DNA of 64,000 nucleotides from contig JAGWJY010000001.1 of assembly GCA_028865545.1 (NCBI GenBank), positions 1 through 64,000 on the forward strand, written 5' to 3'. A program made the translations under genes and the position numbers. Each line of letters starts with the position of its first letter. The first letter of the stretch is position 1. Below are positions 24,537-47,091 of the stretch, piece after piece. The notes beneath the pieces were generated by a model that had not been told where the DNA came from, ran no database searches, and saw nothing but the letters and a program-made list of their open reading frames with translations. Source of the stretch: Alphaproteobacteria bacterium. GTDB lineage: Bacteria; Pseudomonadota; Alphaproteobacteria; Micropepsales; Micropepsaceae.

Positions 24537-24588
24537 TTTCGCCGACAGGCCGGGCCTATACAGCGCGTCCCCCCGCGAAGGAGCCGCC

Positions 24589-25797
24589 TTGCCCCAATTC
24601 GCCATCAACGTCGACGACGTCCACGCGGCTGCCGGTGTCATCGCCGGCGCCGTCGAGCGCACGCCGACGCGGCAGTCGCGCACATTGTCGGAGATCGCCG
24701 GCTGCGAGATCTGGCTCAAATTCGAAAATTTGCAGTTCACCGCCTCGTTCAAGGATCGCGGCGCGCTCAACAAGTTGCTGTCGCTGACGCCTGACGAGCG
24801 CAAGCGCGGCGTCATCGCAATGTCCGCCGGCAATCACGCCCAGGGCGTGGCCTATCACGCCGGCCGGCTCGGCGTTCCCGCCACCATCGTCATGCCGTTG
24901 ATGACGCCGTTCAGCAAGGTCAAGCACACCAAGGGCTTTGGCGCGCGGGTGGTGCTGGACGGGGCGACGCTGTCGGAATCCTTCACGCGCGCGCAGAAGA
25001 TCGCGGCGGAAGAGAATCTCGTCTTCCTGCATCCCTATGACGACGTGAAGGTGATGGCCGGCCAGGGCACGGTGGCGCTGGAGATGCTGGCCGATGCGCC
25101 GGCGCTTGACGCTCTGGTCGTTCCCATCGGCGGTGGCGGATTGATCTCCGGCATCTCCGTCGCTGCCAAGGCACTGAACCCCGCCATCGAAATCTACGGC
25201 GTGCAGACGCGCGCCTATCCCTCCATGTACAACGCGGTGAAGGGCGACGAGCTTCCCTGCGCCGGTCAGACCATGGCGGAAGGCATCGCGGTGAAGCAGC
25301 CCGGCGCGCTGACGACGCCGGTCATCCGCGCGCTGGTGAAGGACATCCTGCTGGTCGGCGAAAGCGATATCGAGCACGCCATCGCGGCGCTGCTGGAAAT
25401 CGAAAAGACGCTGGTGGAAGGCGCAGCCGCCTCGGCCTATGCGGCGGTGACCGCCAACCGCGAACTTTTCCGCGGCCGCAAGGTCGGAGTGGTGCTGTCT
25501 GGCGGCAATGTCGACATGCGGCTGCTGTCCAACGTCATCGTGCGCGAGTTGTCGCGCGAAGGCCGGATCCTGTCCGTCATCGTCGAGATCGAAGACCGCC
25601 CCGGCGTGCTGGCACGTGTCTCGGCGCTGGTCGGCGAAGCAGGCGGCAACATCCTGGAAGTCTCGCACAACCGCATGATCACCGACACCTCGGCCAAGCT
25701 CGCCGATCTCGGCATGACGGTGGAAGCGCGCGACGCCGAACACGCCGCCGAAATCCGCCGCACGCTGCAAGCGGCCGGGTTCAAGCTGAAGGTTTAG
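24589..25797 (+). CDS. ilvA: Threonine ammonia-lyase with ACT domain
   Basis: A PLP enzyme of 402 residues converting threonine to 2-oxobutanoate. The Schiff-base lysine is in FTASFKDRG (about residue 55). The glycine loop PIGGGGLISG that holds the cofactor phosphate lies near 181. The C-terminal ACT domain (about 328-402) likely senses an amino acid. I chose the TTG at 24589 because of a perfect AAGGAG RBS 6 nt upstream and the family-like start PQFAINVDDV; upstream frame is esterase overlap. Biosynthetic versus catabolic role is unresolved. Confidence 0.92.
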   Translation: MPQFAINVDDVHAAAGVIAGAVERTPTRQSRTLSEIAGCEIWLKFENLQFTASFKDRGALNKLLSLTPDERKRGVIAMSAGNHAQGVAYHAGRLGVPATIVMPLMTPFSKVKHTKGFGARVVLDGATLSESFTRAQKIAAEENLVFLHPYDDVKVMAGQGTVALEMLADAPALDALVVPIGGGGLISGISVAAKALNPAIEIYGVQTRAYPSMYNAVKGDELPCAGQTMAEGIAVKQPGALTTPVIRALVKDILLVGESDIEHAIAALLEIEKTLVEGAAASAYAAVTANRELFRGRKVGVVLSGGNVDMRLLSNVIVRELSREGRILSVIVEIEDRPGVLARVSALVGEAGGNILEVSHNRMITDTSAKLADLGMTVEARDAEHAAEIRRTLQAAGFKLKV

Positions 25798-25983: not shown

Positions 25984-28296
25984 ATGAAATTATTCCAGAT
26001 CGCATTGCTTTTCACGCTGGGTGCCGGGCAGGCATTCGGCGCATCCGATGCAGCATCTGTGGTCACCGCAATGACGACGTCGGCCACCGGAATCACGTTG
26101 CAGACGGACCAGGGTACGCTGATCCTGGAACCATGGACGAACCGCATCATCCATGTCGTGGCGTTCCATAATCCGGATTGGAAGGGCGCCTACAACCCCG
26201 CCGTTATCGGCAAACCGCATCAGGTTGCGTGGACGGTCGCGGAAACGTCCGAAGCCTATACGCTGTCGACACCCGCCTTGCAGGTCCGCGTCGATCGCGC
26301 CACCGCGGCGCTGTCTTTCCGCGATCCGTCGGGAAAGATCATTCTGGATGAGCCCGCCCACGCGCGCAGCACGCCCGTCTCGTCCGACGGTCCGCAAGCG
26401 GTTCGCCAGGACTTCGCAGGCTCAGGTGCGTATTTCGGCCTCGGTCAGCATCCCAACGGGCTGATGAACTACGCGGGCAACATCATTCACCTGCAGCAGG
26501 CCAATCGCGATGTCGCGGTCCCGATGCTGGTGTCGCAGTCGGGCTATGGCATTCTGTGGAACGACGCCGCCGTCACCGACGTCGATGTCGGCACGGCCTC
26601 CGACCCCGCCGGGCTGACGTTCCGCTCGGAAGCGGGCGGTGGGATCGACTACGACTTCATCTATGGGCCCACGCTGGACGACGTCGTCGCCGGTTATCGC
26701 GACCTGACTGGCGATGCACCGATGATGGCGCGCTGGACCTGGGGCTTGTTCCAGTCGAAAGAACATTATGCCACGCAGCAGGAGTTGCTCGCCGTGGCGG
26801 CGAAATACCGCGCACTTCACGCCCCCTTGGATGCCGTTGTGCAGGACTGGCAGTACTGGCAGGCCGGACAATGGGGCAGCCACGTGATGAATCCGGCGCG
26901 TTATCCCGACCCTGCCGGCATGATGCAGACGCTGCACGGCGAACACGTCCACGCCATCATCTCGGTATGGCCGCGGTTTGATCTCGGGACAGCCAATCTC
27001 GCGGAACTCGACAAGGCCGGCGGTATGCTCGCGCCCGTCTATCCCAATGTCTATCCCAAGGGCGAAGGCCGTTGGTACGATCCCTTTTCCGCGGCCGGAC
27101 GCGACATCTACTGGCGACAGATCATGCGTACGCTCGGGCGCGACGGCTTCGACGGCTGGTGGCTCGATGCCAGCGAAGCGGAGTTAGGCGGCCAGTGGGG
27201 CCAGATGCGCGACATCACGACCGCCGCCGGTCCCGGTGCGGTGGTCTACAACGCCTATCCGCTGATGCACACGACGGCCGTTCACGACGGCATGCGCCGA
27301 GACATCCCGGGCAAGCGCGTCTTCATTTTGACGCGGTCCGCCTATGCCGGCCAGCAGCGCAACGGCGCGATTACCTGGTCGGGCGACACCAGCGGAAGCT
27401 GGGACAATTTCCGCCGCCAGATTCCGGAAGGCCTGAACTTCAGCCTCAGCGGCATTCCCTATTGGTCCAATGACATCGGCGGCTTCTTTGGCGGCGATCC
27501 CAAGGATCCGGCCTATGCGGAGCTGTTCACGCGCTGGTACGAGTACGGCGTATTCAATCCGATGTTCCGCGTCCACGGCACCGGCGATTCCAAGGAGCTC
27601 TGGCAGTTTGAGCCGGACATCCAGCAGATTCTGCTGCGCTACGATCAGCTGCGGTATCGCCTCTTGCCCTATATTTATTCGCTGTCGTGGGACGTCACAC
27701 ATAATCGCGGCACCATGATGCGTCCGCTGGTCATGGATTTTCAGGACGATCCGCAGGTGGCCGACATCACGAACCAGTACATGTTCGGCAAGGCCTTGCT
27801 GGTCAATCCGGTGACCCAGAAGGGCGCTGCCGTGCGCACCGTCTATCTGCCCGGCAAGACGCCCTGGTATGATTTCTGGACCGGAACGCGCTTCGGCGCC
27901 GGGCAGGTCATTGCCGCCAAGGCCGATCTCGGAACCATCCCGGTGTATGTGCGCGCCGGCAGCGTGCTGCCGCTGGGCCCGGTCGTGCAATACGCGAACG
28001 AAGAGACCGACAAGCCGACCGAACTGCGCGTCTATCCCGGCGCCGACGGGCAATTTCTGCTCTATGACGATGCCGGTGACGGCTATGGCTACCAGAAAGG
28101 TCAATACGCCACGGTTCGCCTGAGCTGGAACGATGCCGAGCACCGTCTCATCATCGGGCGGCGCCAAGGTTCTTATCCCGGCATGGCGAAGTCGCGGCGT
28201 TTCGAAGTCACGTGCGGCTTCACGTCGACGCAAAAGCCCCAGGCCGTAAGCTACACGGGCGGGGAACGATCGGTACTTCTGCCGGACTGTCGCTAG
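25984..28296 (+). CDS. Secreted glycoside hydrolase family 31 (alpha-xylosidase/alpha-glucosidase)
   Basis: A 770-residue retaining alpha-glycosidase with a signal peptide (about 1-19). An N-terminal galactose-mutarotase-like domain is followed by the catalytic barrel. The nucleophile Asp395 lies in GWWLDASEAE and the acid/base Asp468 in TWSGDTSGSW. A proximal beta domain and a C-terminal DUF5110-like domain end the protein. Targets could be xyloglucan side chains or alpha-glucans. RBS GGGGAGGAAA is very strong. The 186 bp upstream contains no obvious operator. It is flanked by ilvA and an ilvA-like remnant. Confidence 0.93.
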   Translation: MKLFQIALLFTLGAGQAFGASDAASVVTAMTTSATGITLQTDQGTLILEPWTNRIIHVVAFHNPDWKGAYNPAVIGKPHQVAWTVAETSEAYTLSTPALQVRVDRATAALSFRDPSGKIILDEPAHARSTPVSSDGPQAVRQDFAGSGAYFGLGQHPNGLMNYAGNIIHLQQANRDVAVPMLVSQSGYGILWNDAAVTDVDVGTASDPAGLTFRSEAGGGIDYDFIYGPTLDDVVAGYRDLTGDAPMMARWTWGLFQSKEHYATQQELLAVAAKYRALHAPLDAVVQDWQYWQAGQWGSHVMNPARYPDPAGMMQTLHGEHVHAIISVWPRFDLGTANLAELDKAGGMLAPVYPNVYPKGEGRWYDPFSAAGRDIYWRQIMRTLGRDGFDGWWLDASEAELGGQWGQMRDITTAAGPGAVVYNAYPLMHTTAVHDGMRRDIPGKRVFILTRSAYAGQQRNGAITWSGDTSGSWDNFRRQIPEGLNFSLSGIPYWSNDIGGFFGGDPKDPAYAELFTRWYEYGVFNPMFRVHGTGDSKELWQFEPDIQQILLRYDQLRYRLLPYIYSLSWDVTHNRGTMMRPLVMDFQDDPQVADITNQYMFGKALLVNPVTQKGAAVRTVYLPGKTPWYDFWTGTRFGAGQVIAAKADLGTIPVYVRAGSVLPLGPVVQYANEETDKPTELRVYPGADGQFLLYDDAGDGYGYQKGQYATVRLSWNDAEHRLIIGRRQGSYPGMAKSRRFEVTCGFTSTQKPQAVSYTGGERSVLLPDCR

Positions 28297-28540: not shown

Positions 28541-28963
28541 CTATCGCGAAAACTTTTCGCTCAGCACGATCGATGACACGGTCCGCGCCACGCCGTGGAT
28601 TTTGCCGATGCGGTCGAGCGCCGCGTCGAGCCGCGCCGGGCTCTCGGCTTCCACCGTGGCGATGAGGTCGGACGCGCCCGACACGGCCACGAGCGAGCGC
28701 ACTTCCGTCAGCTTCTTCAACTCGGCGCCGACGCGGTCGGCCTGTTTGGGATCGGTCGAGATCATCACCACCGCCCTGAGATGGCCGACGGCTTCCTCCG
28801 ACAGCTTCACCGTATAGCCCTTGATGGTGCCTTCACGTTCCATCCGGGCGATGCGCTCCTGCACGGTGGAGCGCGCCAGCCCCAGCTTGCGGGCCAGCGA
28901 AGCGGTGGGTTCGCGCGCGTTGCCGCGCAACAGGGCGATCAGCTTGGCGTCGGCGGGGCGCAT
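28541..28963 (-). CDS. Lrp/AsnC-family transcriptional regulator
   Basis: A 140-residue feast/famine regulator. The N-terminal helix-turn-helix (about 1-50) includes LARKLGLARSTVQERIARME; the C-terminal RAM/ACT effector domain covers about 60-138. The start at 28963 has an AGGA RBS; a Met 16 bp upstream is possible. It is divergent from the saccharopine/lysine dehydrogenase gene, with three phased palindromes between them, so it probably regulates that gene and itself, with lysine or a related amino acid as effector (inferred). Confidence 0.9.
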   Translation of the reverse strand: MRPADAKLIALLRGNAREPTASLARKLGLARSTVQERIARMEREGTIKGYTVKLSEEAVGHLRAVVMISTDPKQADRVGAELKKLTEVRSLVAVSGASDLIATVEAESPARLDAALDRIGKIHGVARTVSSIVLSEKFSR

Positions 28964-28995
28964 CCGGTGTCCTCGCATTGCCCCAAGGGAAGGGG

Positions 28996-29058
28996 CGGCG
29001 TTCCGCCGGGAAACCCGGCGATTCGCCGGATCATAGCGCAAGTTCCGGCGCTTCGCCG
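28996..29058. promoter_or_regulatory. Three phased palindromes between lrp-type gene and lysine gene
   Basis: Three 13-bp palindromes of the form CGGCG-N3-CGCCG lie at 28996-29008 (spacer TTC), 29016-29028 (ATT) and 29046-29058 (CTT). Their centres are 20 and 30 bp apart, about two and three helical turns. They fill the 155-bp divergent promoter. Lrp/AsnC octamers typically bind such phased arrays, so they are the likely operator. Confidence 0.6.
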
Positions 29059-29118
29059 CCTGCCTTTCGCAGCGGTTTGGCCGCACATTTCTGCTGAGGC
29101 GCAACGGGAGTGTGGTCC

Positions 29119-30189
29119 ATGAAAAACGTGATGCTCATCGGAGGCGGCAAGATCGGCGTTGCCATCGCGGAATTCCTCTCCGGCACCGGCGACTACCGGA
29201 TCACCGTGGTCGACCGCGATTCAGCCAGCCTGTCGCGCATGCCGGAAAAGAACGTCGAGCGGCGCAAGGTCGTCATCGAGGATGCCCGCGCCCTGGCCGA
29301 CGAGATCAAGGGTCACGACATCGTGCTCTCGGCCACGCCCTATCACCTTACTGCCACCATTGCCGAAGCCGCCAAGCGCGCCGGCGCCCATTACCTCGAT
29401 CTCACCGAGGACGTGGAATCCACCCGCGCCATCAAGAAGCTTGCGGAGGGGGCCTCGACGGCTTTCATTCCGCAATGCGGACTGGCGCCGGGCTTCATCT
29501 CCATCGCCGCCTACGATCTGGCGAAGAAGTTCGATAAGCTGCGCGACGTCAATATGCGCGTCGGCGCGCTGCCGGTGTTCCCGACCAATGCGCTCAAATA
29601 CAATCTCACCTGGTCGACCGACGGCCTGATCAACGAGTACTGCAATCCGTGTGAATCGGTGCGCGACGGCGTGCGCGGCGAAGTGCCGTCTCTAGAGGAG
29701 ATCGAACATTTCTCCCTCGACGGTACGGAGTATGAGGCCTTCAACACCTCCGGCGGTCTGGGTACGCTGTGCGACACGCTGGAAGGCAAGGTCGAGAACC
29801 TCAACTACAAGACCGTGCGCTATCCCGGCCATCGCGACATCATCAAGATGCTGGTACGCGATCTGCGCCTCGGCGTCCGCCGTGAGATTCTGAAGGACGT
29901 CCTGGAGACCGCGATCCCCATCACCTATCAGGACGTGGTGCTGATCTTCGTCACCGTCTCGGGCTGGCGCGACGGCCTGCTGACCCAGGAAAGCTATGCC
30001 AAGAAGATCTATGCGCAGCATGTCGGCGGCCGGCTGATGAGCGCCATCCAGGTGACGACGGCGACCGGCATCTGCGCCATGTGCGATCTGCTGGCCGATG
30101 GAAAGCTGCCGCAGAAGGGTTTCGTGCGGCAGGAAGAGACCAGTCTGTCGGACTTCCTCGCCAACCGCTTTGGGAAATATTACGCGTAA
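29119..30189 (+). CDS. Saccharopine dehydrogenase-family lysine-catabolic dehydrogenase
   Basis: A 356-residue enzyme with an N-terminal Rossmann fold (MLIGGGKIGVAIAEF) and the saccharopine dehydrogenase C-terminal domain (NTSGGLGTLCDT, YKTVRYPGH). It is single-domain. It could be a saccharopine dehydrogenase (glutamate-forming) or an L-lysine 6-dehydrogenase, which belongs to the same family. The latter fits better because no lysine-ketoglutarate reductase is encoded nearby. The product, aminoadipate semialdehyde, is the substrate of the ALDH7 enzyme downstream. The ATG at 29119 follows GGGAG at 8-9 nt; a GTG nine bases earlier lacks an RBS. Confidence 0.85.
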   Translation: MKNVMLIGGGKIGVAIAEFLSGTGDYRITVVDRDSASLSRMPEKNVERRKVVIEDARALADEIKGHDIVLSATPYHLTATIAEAAKRAGAHYLDLTEDVESTRAIKKLAEGASTAFIPQCGLAPGFISIAAYDLAKKFDKLRDVNMRVGALPVFPTNALKYNLTWSTDGLINEYCNPCESVRDGVRGEVPSLEEIEHFSLDGTEYEAFNTSGGLGTLCDTLEGKVENLNYKTVRYPGHRDIIKMLVRDLRLGVRREILKDVLETAIPITYQDVVLIFVTVSGWRDGLLTQESYAKKIYAQHVGGRLMSAIQVTTATGICAMCDLLADGKLPQKGFVRQEETSLSDFLANRFGKYYA

Positions 30190-30550: not shown

Positions 30551-32038
30551 ATGCACGCCAAACTCCTCGCCGAATTCGGCATCACACCGTCGGGCTCGCA
30601 CAGTGTGCGTTCGCCGATCGACGGTTCCGAGATCGGCCGCGTCGCCTTCGACGATGCCGCCGCCATCTCGGCGAAGATCGAAGCCAGTGTGGAAGCGTTC
30701 CGCATCTGGCGCGACGTGCCGGCGCCCAAGCGCGGCGAGTTGGTGCGCCTGCTGGGCGACGAGCTGCGTGCTCATAAGGACGCGCTCGGCCGTCTCGTCA
30801 CCGTCGAGAACGGCAAGATTCTCCAGGAAGGCCTCGGCGAAGTGCAGGAGATGATCGACATCTGCGATTTCGCGGTCGGTCTGTCGCGCCAGCTTTACGG
30901 TCTCACCATCGCCTCGGAACGGCCCGGGCATCGCATGATGGAGACCTGGCATCCCGCCGGTCCCGTCGCCGTGATCTCGGCCTTCAACTTCCCCGTCGCG
31001 GTATGGGCGTGGAATGCGGCGCTGGCCTTGGTCTGCGGCGATCCGGTGATCTGGAAGCCCAGCGCCAAGACGCCGCTGGCGGCGCTCGCCGTCCAGGCGC
31101 TGTTCGCCCGCGCGGCAAAGAAGTTCGGTGACGCGCCGGCGGCGCTGTCGCAACTCGCACTGTGCACGCGCGAAGCGGGCGAGTTGCTGACCAAGGATCC
31201 GCGCATTCCCGTGGTCAGCGCCACAGGCTCGACGGCGATGGGCAAGATCATCGGTCCCACCGTCGCCGCCCGCTTCGGCCGCAGCATTCTGGAATTGGGC
31301 GGCAACAACGCGATGATCGTCTGCCCCTCGGCGAAACTGGAGCTGGCCGAGCGCGCCATCCTGTTCGCCGCGGTCGGCACTGCGGGGCAGCGCTGCACCT
31401 CGCTACGACGGCTGATCGTGCATGAAAGCGTCTACGACACGCTGCTGGCGCGTTTGAAGACCCATTACGGCAGGCTGGTGATCGGCGATCCGCTGGCGAA
31501 GGGAACGTTGGTCGGCCCGTTGATCGACGGCACGGCGTTCGAAGCGATGCAACAGGCGCTGGCGGCGGCCCGCGCCGAAGGCGGCAAGATCACCGGAGGC
31601 GGCCGCGCGCTCCAGGCGGAATATCCCAATGCCTATTACGCCCATCCGGCAATCGTCGAGATGCCGGCGCAGACGGCGATCGTCTGCCACGAGACCTTTG
31701 CGCCGATCCTCTACGTCATGCGTTATCGCAAATTCGATGAAGCGCTGGCGCTGCACAATGAAGTGCCACAAGGGCTGTCGTCCTGCATCTTCACGCGCGA
31801 CATGCAGGAAGCGGAGAAGTTCCTGGCGGCGTCCGGTTCGGATTGCGGCATCGCCAACGTCAATATCGGTCCGTCCGGTGCGGAGATCGGCGGCGCCTTC
31901 GGCGGCGAGAAGGAAACCGGCGGCGGACGCGAATCCGGTTCGGATTCCTGGAAGGCCTATATGCGGCGCCAGACGGCAACCATCAATTATTCCGACGCGC
32001 TGCCGCTGGCCCAGGGAATCGAATTCGGCGGAGGGTGA
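30551..32038 (+). CDS. ALDH7-family L-aminoadipate-semialdehyde dehydrogenase
   Basis: NAD(P)+-dependent dehydrogenase of 495 residues that oxidises aminoadipate semialdehyde to 2-aminoadipate (the bacterial AmaB / human antiquitin branch). The catalytic Cys is in GQRCTS (about 282) and the general-base Glu in LELGGNN. The family 7 hallmarks NFPVAVWAWN, CTREAGE and GGEKETGGGRESGSDSWK are present. It follows the saccharopine/lysine dehydrogenase on the same strand after 361 bp, giving a two-step lysine route to aminoadipate. Confidence 0.93.
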   Translation: MHAKLLAEFGITPSGSHSVRSPIDGSEIGRVAFDDAAAISAKIEASVEAFRIWRDVPAPKRGELVRLLGDELRAHKDALGRLVTVENGKILQEGLGEVQEMIDICDFAVGLSRQLYGLTIASERPGHRMMETWHPAGPVAVISAFNFPVAVWAWNAALALVCGDPVIWKPSAKTPLAALAVQALFARAAKKFGDAPAALSQLALCTREAGELLTKDPRIPVVSATGSTAMGKIIGPTVAARFGRSILELGGNNAMIVCPSAKLELAERAILFAAVGTAGQRCTSLRRLIVHESVYDTLLARLKTHYGRLVIGDPLAKGTLVGPLIDGTAFEAMQQALAAARAEGGKITGGGRALQAEYPNAYYAHPAIVEMPAQTAIVCHETFAPILYVMRYRKFDEALALHNEVPQGLSSCIFTRDMQEAEKFLAASGSDCGIANVNIGPSGAEIGGAFGGEKETGGGRESGSDSWKAYMRRQTATINYSDALPLAQGIEFGGG

Positions 32039-46240: not shown

Positions 46241-47091
46241 TGCAGTTCGAGCTTTTGGATTCCTTTTCGATTCCCGCCGATCCCGCAAAAGCCAATGAAG
46301 ATGCCTTTGGTGCGGAGCCCGAGGCTGCCGTGGTGCTCGACGGCGCAACCTGGGTCGGTGAGGAGATGCTGCTGCCGGGACCGAGCGACGCCGCCTGGAT
46401 CGCTCATTTCGGCGCGCGCCGGCTTATGGCGCATATGCGCGACGGCGATGCGCCGCAGAGTGCCTTGCGCCATGCCTTGGCCGACGCCGAGAAGTCCTAT
46501 GCCGGCCTGCGGCGCCGTCCACCGAAAGAGACATTCGAGATACCCTTCGCCTCGATGATGTTCGTGGCGCCGGATGACAATGGCTTTAATGCCTTTTGGT
46601 TCGGCGATTGTGCGGCGCTGGTTGCGCGGCCGGATGCATCGGCGGAAGTCATCGGCGAGGCTTTCGACAAGCGTGCGGCCGAAGCGCGCCGGGTCAAGAT
46701 GCTCGCCGAAGCCAAGGGACTGGCGCCTGCCGCCGGGATGTCGCGCGCCGAATATCTGCCGCATCTGCGCGCGGCACGCAACAAGGTCAACAGCAGTAAT
46801 GGTGACTGGCTGTTTTCGCCGGACACACATGCCGTCGATCATGTTTCGCAATGTCATGTCGAGGCGCCAGCCGGCACGCTGGTGCTGCTGTCGACGGATG
46901 GCTTCCTGGCGCTCGCCAGCGATTACCAAGCCTATGACGCCGGCGGGTTGTTGCGTGCTGTCGAGCAAAAAGGCTTGCAGGCGCTGGGCGTGGAACTGCG
47001 CGCACTCGAAGAAGGCGACGCCGAAGGCCGCCGCTTCGCACGCCTCAAGAAGAGCGACGATGCGACGGCGGTGCTTCTGCGACTGTCGTAA
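46240..47091 (+). CDS. PP2C-like protein phosphatase
   Basis: A 283-residue protein. It keeps the PP2C metal-binding elements: NEDAFG near residue 19, VVLDGAT near 30, STDGFLAL near 224 and a C-terminal KKSDDATAV. The usual GG of the second motif is absent, so activity is likely but not certain. It overlaps the CCA stop by one base (TGATG). It may be a serine/threonine phosphatase tied to RNA metabolism. Confidence 0.75.
   Translation: MQFELLDSFSIPADPAKANEDAFGAEPEAAVVLDGATWVGEEMLLPGPSDAAWIAHFGARRLMAHMRDGDAPQSALRHALADAEKSYAGLRRRPPKETFEIPFASMMFVAPDDNGFNAFWFGDCAALVARPDASAEVIGEAFDKRAAEARRVKMLAEAKGLAPAAGMSRAEYLPHLRAARNKVNSSNGDWLFSPDTHAVDHVSQCHVEAPAGTLVLLSTDGFLALASDYQAYDAGGLLRAVEQKGLQALGVELRALEEGDAEGRRFARLKKSDDATAVLLRLS

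Follow-up and report, generated by a model that had tools for sequence, protein, structure and literature searches.

The binding sites described for regulators of the Lrp family are clusters of palindromes whose centres lie two or three helical turns apart (PMC2995911). For Ss-LrpB from Sulfolobus solfataricus, cooperative binding of three dimers to the control region of its own gene, with wrapping of the DNA, is described. Ss-LrpB recognizes a 15-bp palindromic consensus and also activates a neighbouring operon (PMC4046817). Lysine-responsive Lrp proteins include FL11 from Pyrococcus, for which a co-crystal with a 13-bp palindromic site is described, and LysM from Sulfolobus (PMC2995911). Mycobacterial LrpA is encoded beside lat, a gene of lysine epsilon-oxidation, and according to PMC4726150 binds the DNA upstream of that gene.

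Local Lrp regulators such as BkdR, PutR and MdeR are encoded divergently from their catabolic targets, and BkdR is described as a divergent Lrp-type activator (PMC8707732). The regulator of putA in Rhodobacter is likewise an Lrp-like activator according to the title of a reference in PMC8707732. In Ruegeria pomeroyi, the pair SPO0234-SPO0235 consists of lysdh followed by aasadh, encoding aminoadipic semialdehyde dehydrogenase, with the function listed as verified (PMC4334477). No paper on Lrp control of a bacterial lysine 6-dehydrogenase was found in searches of open-licence texts; such work may be in print.

The window analysed here, a stretch of 64,000 nucleotides from an alphaproteobacterium of the family Micropepsaceae, carries three exact copies of the palindrome CGGCG-N3-CGCCG in the divergent intergenic region between an Lrp/AsnC gene and a dehydrogenase gene. 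The spacing of their centres is 20 and 30 bp. These palindromes, with their centres and spacings, had been given in a preliminary description and were confirmed by exact pattern search. Upstream regions of relatives were compared as aligned rows, 30 from the same genus and 16 from sister genera (together 46); these counts exclude the same-genus loci L080-L083, which encode a 64% identical enzyme and a regulator of a different subgroup. The features of the locus are as follows.

28541-28963, minus strand: Lrp/AsnC-family regulator, 140 residues, Pfam HTH_AsnC-type and AsnC_trans_reg domains above cut-off
28996-29008, no strand: predicted operator site 1, CGGCGTTCCGCCG, centred on 29002, near -94 relative to the predicted start of the enzyme-gene transcript, 72% complementarity in the 30 same-genus rows
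29016-29028, no strand: predicted operator site 2, CGGCGATTCGCCG, centre 29022, about -74, over the predicted regulator start, 85% complementarity in the same rows
29030-29035, minus strand: predicted -10 of the regulator promoter, TATGAT on the minus strand, between sites 2 and 3
29046-29058, no strand: predicted operator site 3, CGGCGCTTCGCCG, centre 29052, about -44, 70% complementarity in the same rows
29060-29061, plus strand: invariant CT just 3' of site 3
29084-29089, plus strand: predicted -10 element of the enzyme gene, reading CACATT in the window; in relatives the second position is A and the sixth usually T
29119-30189, plus strand: probable L-lysine 6-dehydrogenase (lysDH), 356 residues, saccharopine-dehydrogenase superfamily (Pfam)
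30551-32038, plus strand: L-piperidine-6-carboxylate (P6C) dehydrogenase, NCBIfam NF050084 at 811.8 bits, above the cut-off of 730

The arms of the sites are GC-rich, and their central three bases are TTC, ATT and CTT; relatives often have A or T at the centre. A lone copy of the 13-mer is ordinary in this GC-rich genome and has little meaning: over its 3.4 Mb the pattern occurs at 130 places and a reversed control pattern at 73, and the window holds one further exact copy outside the array, at 46443. Close-set copies are another matter. A genome search for two copies no more than 30 bp apart returned two pairs, both within the array, against none for the reversed control, and by arithmetic from the 130 places about 2e-4 triplets this tight are expected per genome. 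The preliminary description had counted a scatter of the same 13-mer over random intergenic sites against its reading; single copies are indeed scattered through the genome, but arrays are not. The genes on the other side of the regulator in the window encode a threonine ammonia-lyase (24550-25797) and a family-31 glycoside hydrolase (25984-28296), and no link between them and the array was seen.

The start of the regulator was set at an M-R-x-x-D stretch common to its relatives, though translation might also begin at an in-frame ATG that lies five codons upstream. The protein scores 42.8 bits against PF13404 (cut-off 27) and 58.6 bits against PF01037 (cut-off 25), as an Lrp/AsnC protein should. 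Its best NCBIfam model is LysM (NF040947), at 89.1 bits under a 180-bit cut-off, a score that does not make it a LysM equivalog. The best matches in the PDB are 2W25 and 2VBW, which we take to be mycobacterial LrpA. The recognition-helix stretch LARSTVQ[E/D]R is present in 24 of 29 same-genus regulators, the remaining five differing by one residue, and in all 16 regulators from sister genera. Residue 2 is R in 28 of the 29 and D in 13 of the 16.

The adjacent enzyme had been called a saccharopine or lysine dehydrogenase. It is most likely an L-lysine 6-dehydrogenase and not a saccharopine dehydrogenase, judging from the fold of its model and from P6C dehydrogenase as the next gene. In an AlphaFold model built with 25 sequences (pLDDT 90.8), the first-ranked fold match is 3ABI, with a TM-score of 0.83 over the full length (E 1.6e-25), and saccharopine dehydrogenases and reductases follow at 0.72-0.78. 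The title of 3ABI names the L-lysine dehydrogenase from Pyrococcus horikoshii, and the enzyme is called L-lysine 6-dehydrogenase in PMC10413350. Of 68 named loci, 47 include a gene for P6C dehydrogenase; among the remainder are loci that are incomplete. With this neighbour, the dehydrogenase would be expected to oxidise lysine to piperideine-6-carboxylate.

The arrangement of the two divergent genes is strongly conserved. The enzyme gene was found in 50 of 96 genomes of the family; 52 of the 96 carry a regulator match at E <= 1e-25, and three of these (G206, G216 and G244) have no enzyme gene; a search at the level of the order returned the same 96 genomes. The regulator is divergent from and adjacent to the enzyme gene in 49 of the 50 family rows, the exception, L038, lying at a contig end, and it stands beside the enzyme gene in 44 of 67 rows from outside the family.

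In the 30 same-genus rows, the three centres are the top 3 of 118 palindrome centres, in the order 29022, 29002 and 29052, and the median complementarity is 26%. Information averages 1.51 bits per column in the sites, 0.62 in the spacers and 0.40 in the flanks across the 30 rows. The upstream stretches compared vary from 117 to 374 bp, whereas the spacing within the array is constant. With 20 and 30 bp, it follows the Lrp norm of two or three helical turns (PMC2995911). Indels are absent from the array in 28 of the 30 rows (L080-L083 excluded); L049 has one added base, and L061 is truncated. At least four of five pairs are kept at all three sites in 15 of the 30 rows, and at two or more sites in 29. 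The placement of the array in the divergent promoter at whole helical turns is thus supported in close orthologues, as the preliminary description had proposed; the exact three-copy form, by contrast, is missing from them. One row, the window itself, has three exact 13-mers, six have two, ten have one and 13 have none.

Two pairs of site 2 covary across the 46 rows. The pair 29018/29026 is complementary in 36 rows against a shuffle mean of 23.6, and the pair 29020/29024 in 41 rows against 25.4; none of 2000 shuffles reaches either value. The other three pairs of this site show no covariation beyond shuffles in the same rows. Since the shuffles ignore relatedness, the covariation is supportive and not proof.

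Sister genera have changed the sequence and partly kept the symmetry, as in CGTCATTATAACG, CGCTATTATAGCG and CGTTATTATAACG. At the columns of the same-genus sites, 11 of the 16 sister rows have one site with four of five pairs and five have none. Two such sites occur in none of the 16 rows, site 3 passes in none, and nine rows have indels of 1-2 bp in the array. The preliminary description had set the GC-rich site apart from the AT-rich sites usual for Lrp. It is indeed an unusual form, but as a variant at the level of the genus only, the sister genera being AT-richer, for example in CGTTATTATAACG. The loci L080-L083 combine their 64%-identical lysDH and different Lrp subgroup (LSRAAVYxRL) with different sites, no exact copy among them, in arrays 1 bp longer. 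Replacement of the whole module by transfer is possible in these loci.

Promoter-like elements stand at fixed positions relative to the sites. When rows are anchored on site 3 without gaps, C29060 and T29061 are present in 46 of 46 rows, as is A29085, and T29089 in 37 of 46. The window's own CACATT is a poor -10 element. In L080-L083, outside these counts, CAAACT or CAAAAT was seen by eye one base further on. A TAnnnT element was read at the same offset from the CT in 17 of 17 betaproteobacterial rows, which were picked by eye from 44 outside rows with a divergent Lrp gene; some of the 27 rows left out, for example Pseudochrobactrum, have no obvious -10 element by eye. The upstream half-sites of the beta rows are shifted relative to the same-genus rows, and for this reason the claim of features common to both groups is limited to the CT mark and the -10. 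The locus L139, from a record titled Bacillus subtilis SK6B4, has a lysDH region that closely resembles the one in Pseudochrobactrum and probably comes from a contaminated or mislabelled assembly.

On the minus strand, the predicted regulator -10 has A29030 in 26, T29034 in 23 and A29035 in 28 of the 30 same-genus rows. No TTGACA-like -35 is visible for the enzyme gene in the 46 rows or the 17 beta rows. A sigma-70 consensus scan of 28900-29200 found no promoters with 0.0 expected and thus had almost no power, so that the missing -35 rests on the reading of aligned rows. Transcription of the enzyme gene would start near 29096 on the plus strand, and the centres of sites 3, 2 and 1 would therefore fall near -44, -74 and -94, positions that suit an activator. 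The regulator transcript would start near 29023 on the minus strand, inside site 2.

Judging from the letters of the locus and its relatives, the array most likely serves the adjacent Lrp/AsnC regulator as its operator. We hold with moderate confidence that this local regulator represses itself and activates the enzyme gene with lysine or a pathway product. Regulator dimers would bind all three palindromes from the same side of the helix, at two- and three-turn spacing, and the bound dimers would probably join into a wrapped higher-order complex. Binding is expected to repress the regulator gene, since site 2 lies over its predicted start and site 3 over its -35 region. Self-repression is known for local divergent Lrp regulators of the BkdR, PutR and MdeR kind. 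The dimer at -44, on the same helical face as the other two, may assist RNA polymerase on the other promoter, that of the enzyme gene. Activation of the enzyme gene by the loaded regulator is the most likely outcome because the sites lie upstream at these three positions, next to a conserved -10-like element with no recognisable -35; the site positions and the missing -35 suggest an activator of the BkdR/PutR type for this divergent catabolic gene. The conversion of lysine to piperideine-6-carboxylate and on to aminoadipate would thereby be turned on. Lysine would be a natural guess for the ligand, by analogy with the lysine-responsive LysM and FL11, with LysM as the best curated model (below its cut-off), and with mycobacterial LrpA upstream of the lysine epsilon-aminotransferase gene.

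The preliminary description had proposed an autoregulatory operator and lysine-responsive switch. The conserved phased array and the predicted regulator start inside site 2 speak for the autoregulatory operator of that proposal. What is new here is the -10-like element of the enzyme gene at a fixed distance from site 3, and a geometry that suggests activation of that gene in addition to autoregulation.

The same operator could also work with the opposite sign, the regulator repressing both divergent promoters until lysine or an intermediate releases it. Such double repression would fit almost as well as the model with activation: the array overlaps both predicted promoters in part and otherwise lies upstream of them, and a repressing divergent Lrp/AsnC regulator, PA2577, is described (PMC8707732). 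The sites, however, occupy activator-like positions 5' of the enzyme -10, with none over the predicted enzyme start, and the TTGACA-like -35 expected of a simple repressed promoter does not appear in the aligned rows. We regard this reading as rather unlikely, yet serious. It is improbable that the sites belong to a regulator other than the adjacent Lrp. In locus L026 (genome G164) an operator-like array lies between lysDH and a divergent gene for a TauE-family permease, perhaps a transporter of the lysine pathway, with no Lrp gene there. Against another regulator stand the co-location of regulator and enzyme genes in most family and wider rows and a site geometry typical of Lrp (PMC2995911), and both exceptions examined encode a relative of the regulator elsewhere. 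The best relative in G164 (47% identity) is on another contig. In G175 the regulator (53% identity) is the third gene of the same operon, behind those for lysDH and P6C dehydrogenase and all on one strand, and a site pair spaced by 20 bp is still found upstream of lysDH. In both genomes, therefore, the regulator is encoded at another place, yet the sites have remained beside the enzyme gene.

The palindromes might instead form RNA hairpins, act as terminators or belong to a mobile REP-like element, a reading we consider highly improbable. CGGCG-N3-CGCCG is able to fold, and REP-like insertions lie nearby in four relatives. The inserted elements are all outside the array, however, and the 20/30-bp spacing is constant across relatives, the genome has no second close-set pair, and site 2 reads CTGCGATTCGCCG in many relatives, with one pair broken. 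A search for terminator-like sites gave none, though only 0.3 were expected by chance. The insertions themselves (L043, L044, L045 and L060) are palindromes with ends GTCATCGCCCG or GTCATCACCCG and CGGGCGATGACG; they separate the operator from the start codon of lysDH and leave the array and the -10-like element intact.

With a loose motif, 29 same-genus rows gave 3.28 sites per sequence against 1.08 in Markov-sampled sequences, and 70 of 104 distances were phased, against an expected fraction of 0.23. The 16 sister rows gave 1.19 against 0.58, with 3 of 7 phased (0.29 expected), and 43 rows outside the family, one row longer than 450 bp having been dropped, gave 1.37 against 0.35, with 12 of 29 phased (0.23 expected). 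Phasing outside the genus is suggestive only. The loose motif is unspecific, because it is also enriched (1.42 against 0.65) at 19 lysDH loci without an adjacent Lrp gene; these remained from 23, one being masked and three too near a contig end.

An extended 16-mer, with one mismatch allowed, matched 32 places in eight same-genus genomes; 11 of them are in lysDH arrays, and the lysDH array was matched in all eight genomes. For 19 of the 21 other places (all but C84 and C87 of the own genome), the proteins encoded within about 1.5 kb on each side (less at contig ends) were compared all against all, which revealed no shared second target. The sole similarity across genomes was weak, at 29% identity between L181 and L165. 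The places L155 and L170 (own genome, C10) were judged from ORF coordinates to lie within coding frames. The 16-mer search tentatively favours a local regulator over one with a wide regulon; degenerate sites would escape it. In G249 (C59:32992-33044), two motif matches 37 bp apart (L171/L178) lie upstream of a TetR-family gene.

More tentatively, the locus may represent an old portable promoter-operator module for lysine 6-dehydrogenase, comprising the fixed -10, the CT mark and phased Lrp sites, and partly common to alpha- and betaproteobacteria. Its half-site would have switched from an AT-richer CGTCA/CGTTA to CGGCG under a constant recognition helix, so that specificity would be set outside the helix. 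Residue 2, R in the CGGCG genus and mostly D in sister genera, is a guess for such a determinant. This conjecture is possible and somewhat doubtful.

Among the described systems, the array resembles in form that of Ss-LrpB, which differs in being archaeal, in its sequence (TTGCAAAATTTGCAA) and in targeting porDAB and permeases instead of lysine genes (PMC4046817). BkdR, PutR and MdeR share the divergent arrangement, but their substrates are branched-chain keto acids, proline or methionine. In the mycobacterial case, lrpA is described as lying upstream of lat, and the enzyme is a lysine epsilon-aminotransferase (PMC4726150). LysM differs in targeting lysine biosynthesis and FL11 in being global (PMC2995911), and the lysdh-aasadh pair of Ruegeria pomeroyi is described without a regulator or operator in PMC4334477.

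For Alphaproteobacteria that are represented chiefly by metagenome-assembled genomes, the locus offers a lysine epsilon-oxidation operon whose predicted regulator, operator and promoter can be checked directly. Its relatives, with steady spacing, drifting half-sites and a constant recognition helix, form a natural data set on change of DNA specificity in Lrp-type regulators. The type of switch is itself well known, and the array is a well-supported addition to the known Lrp phased operators, with an unusual GC-rich site.
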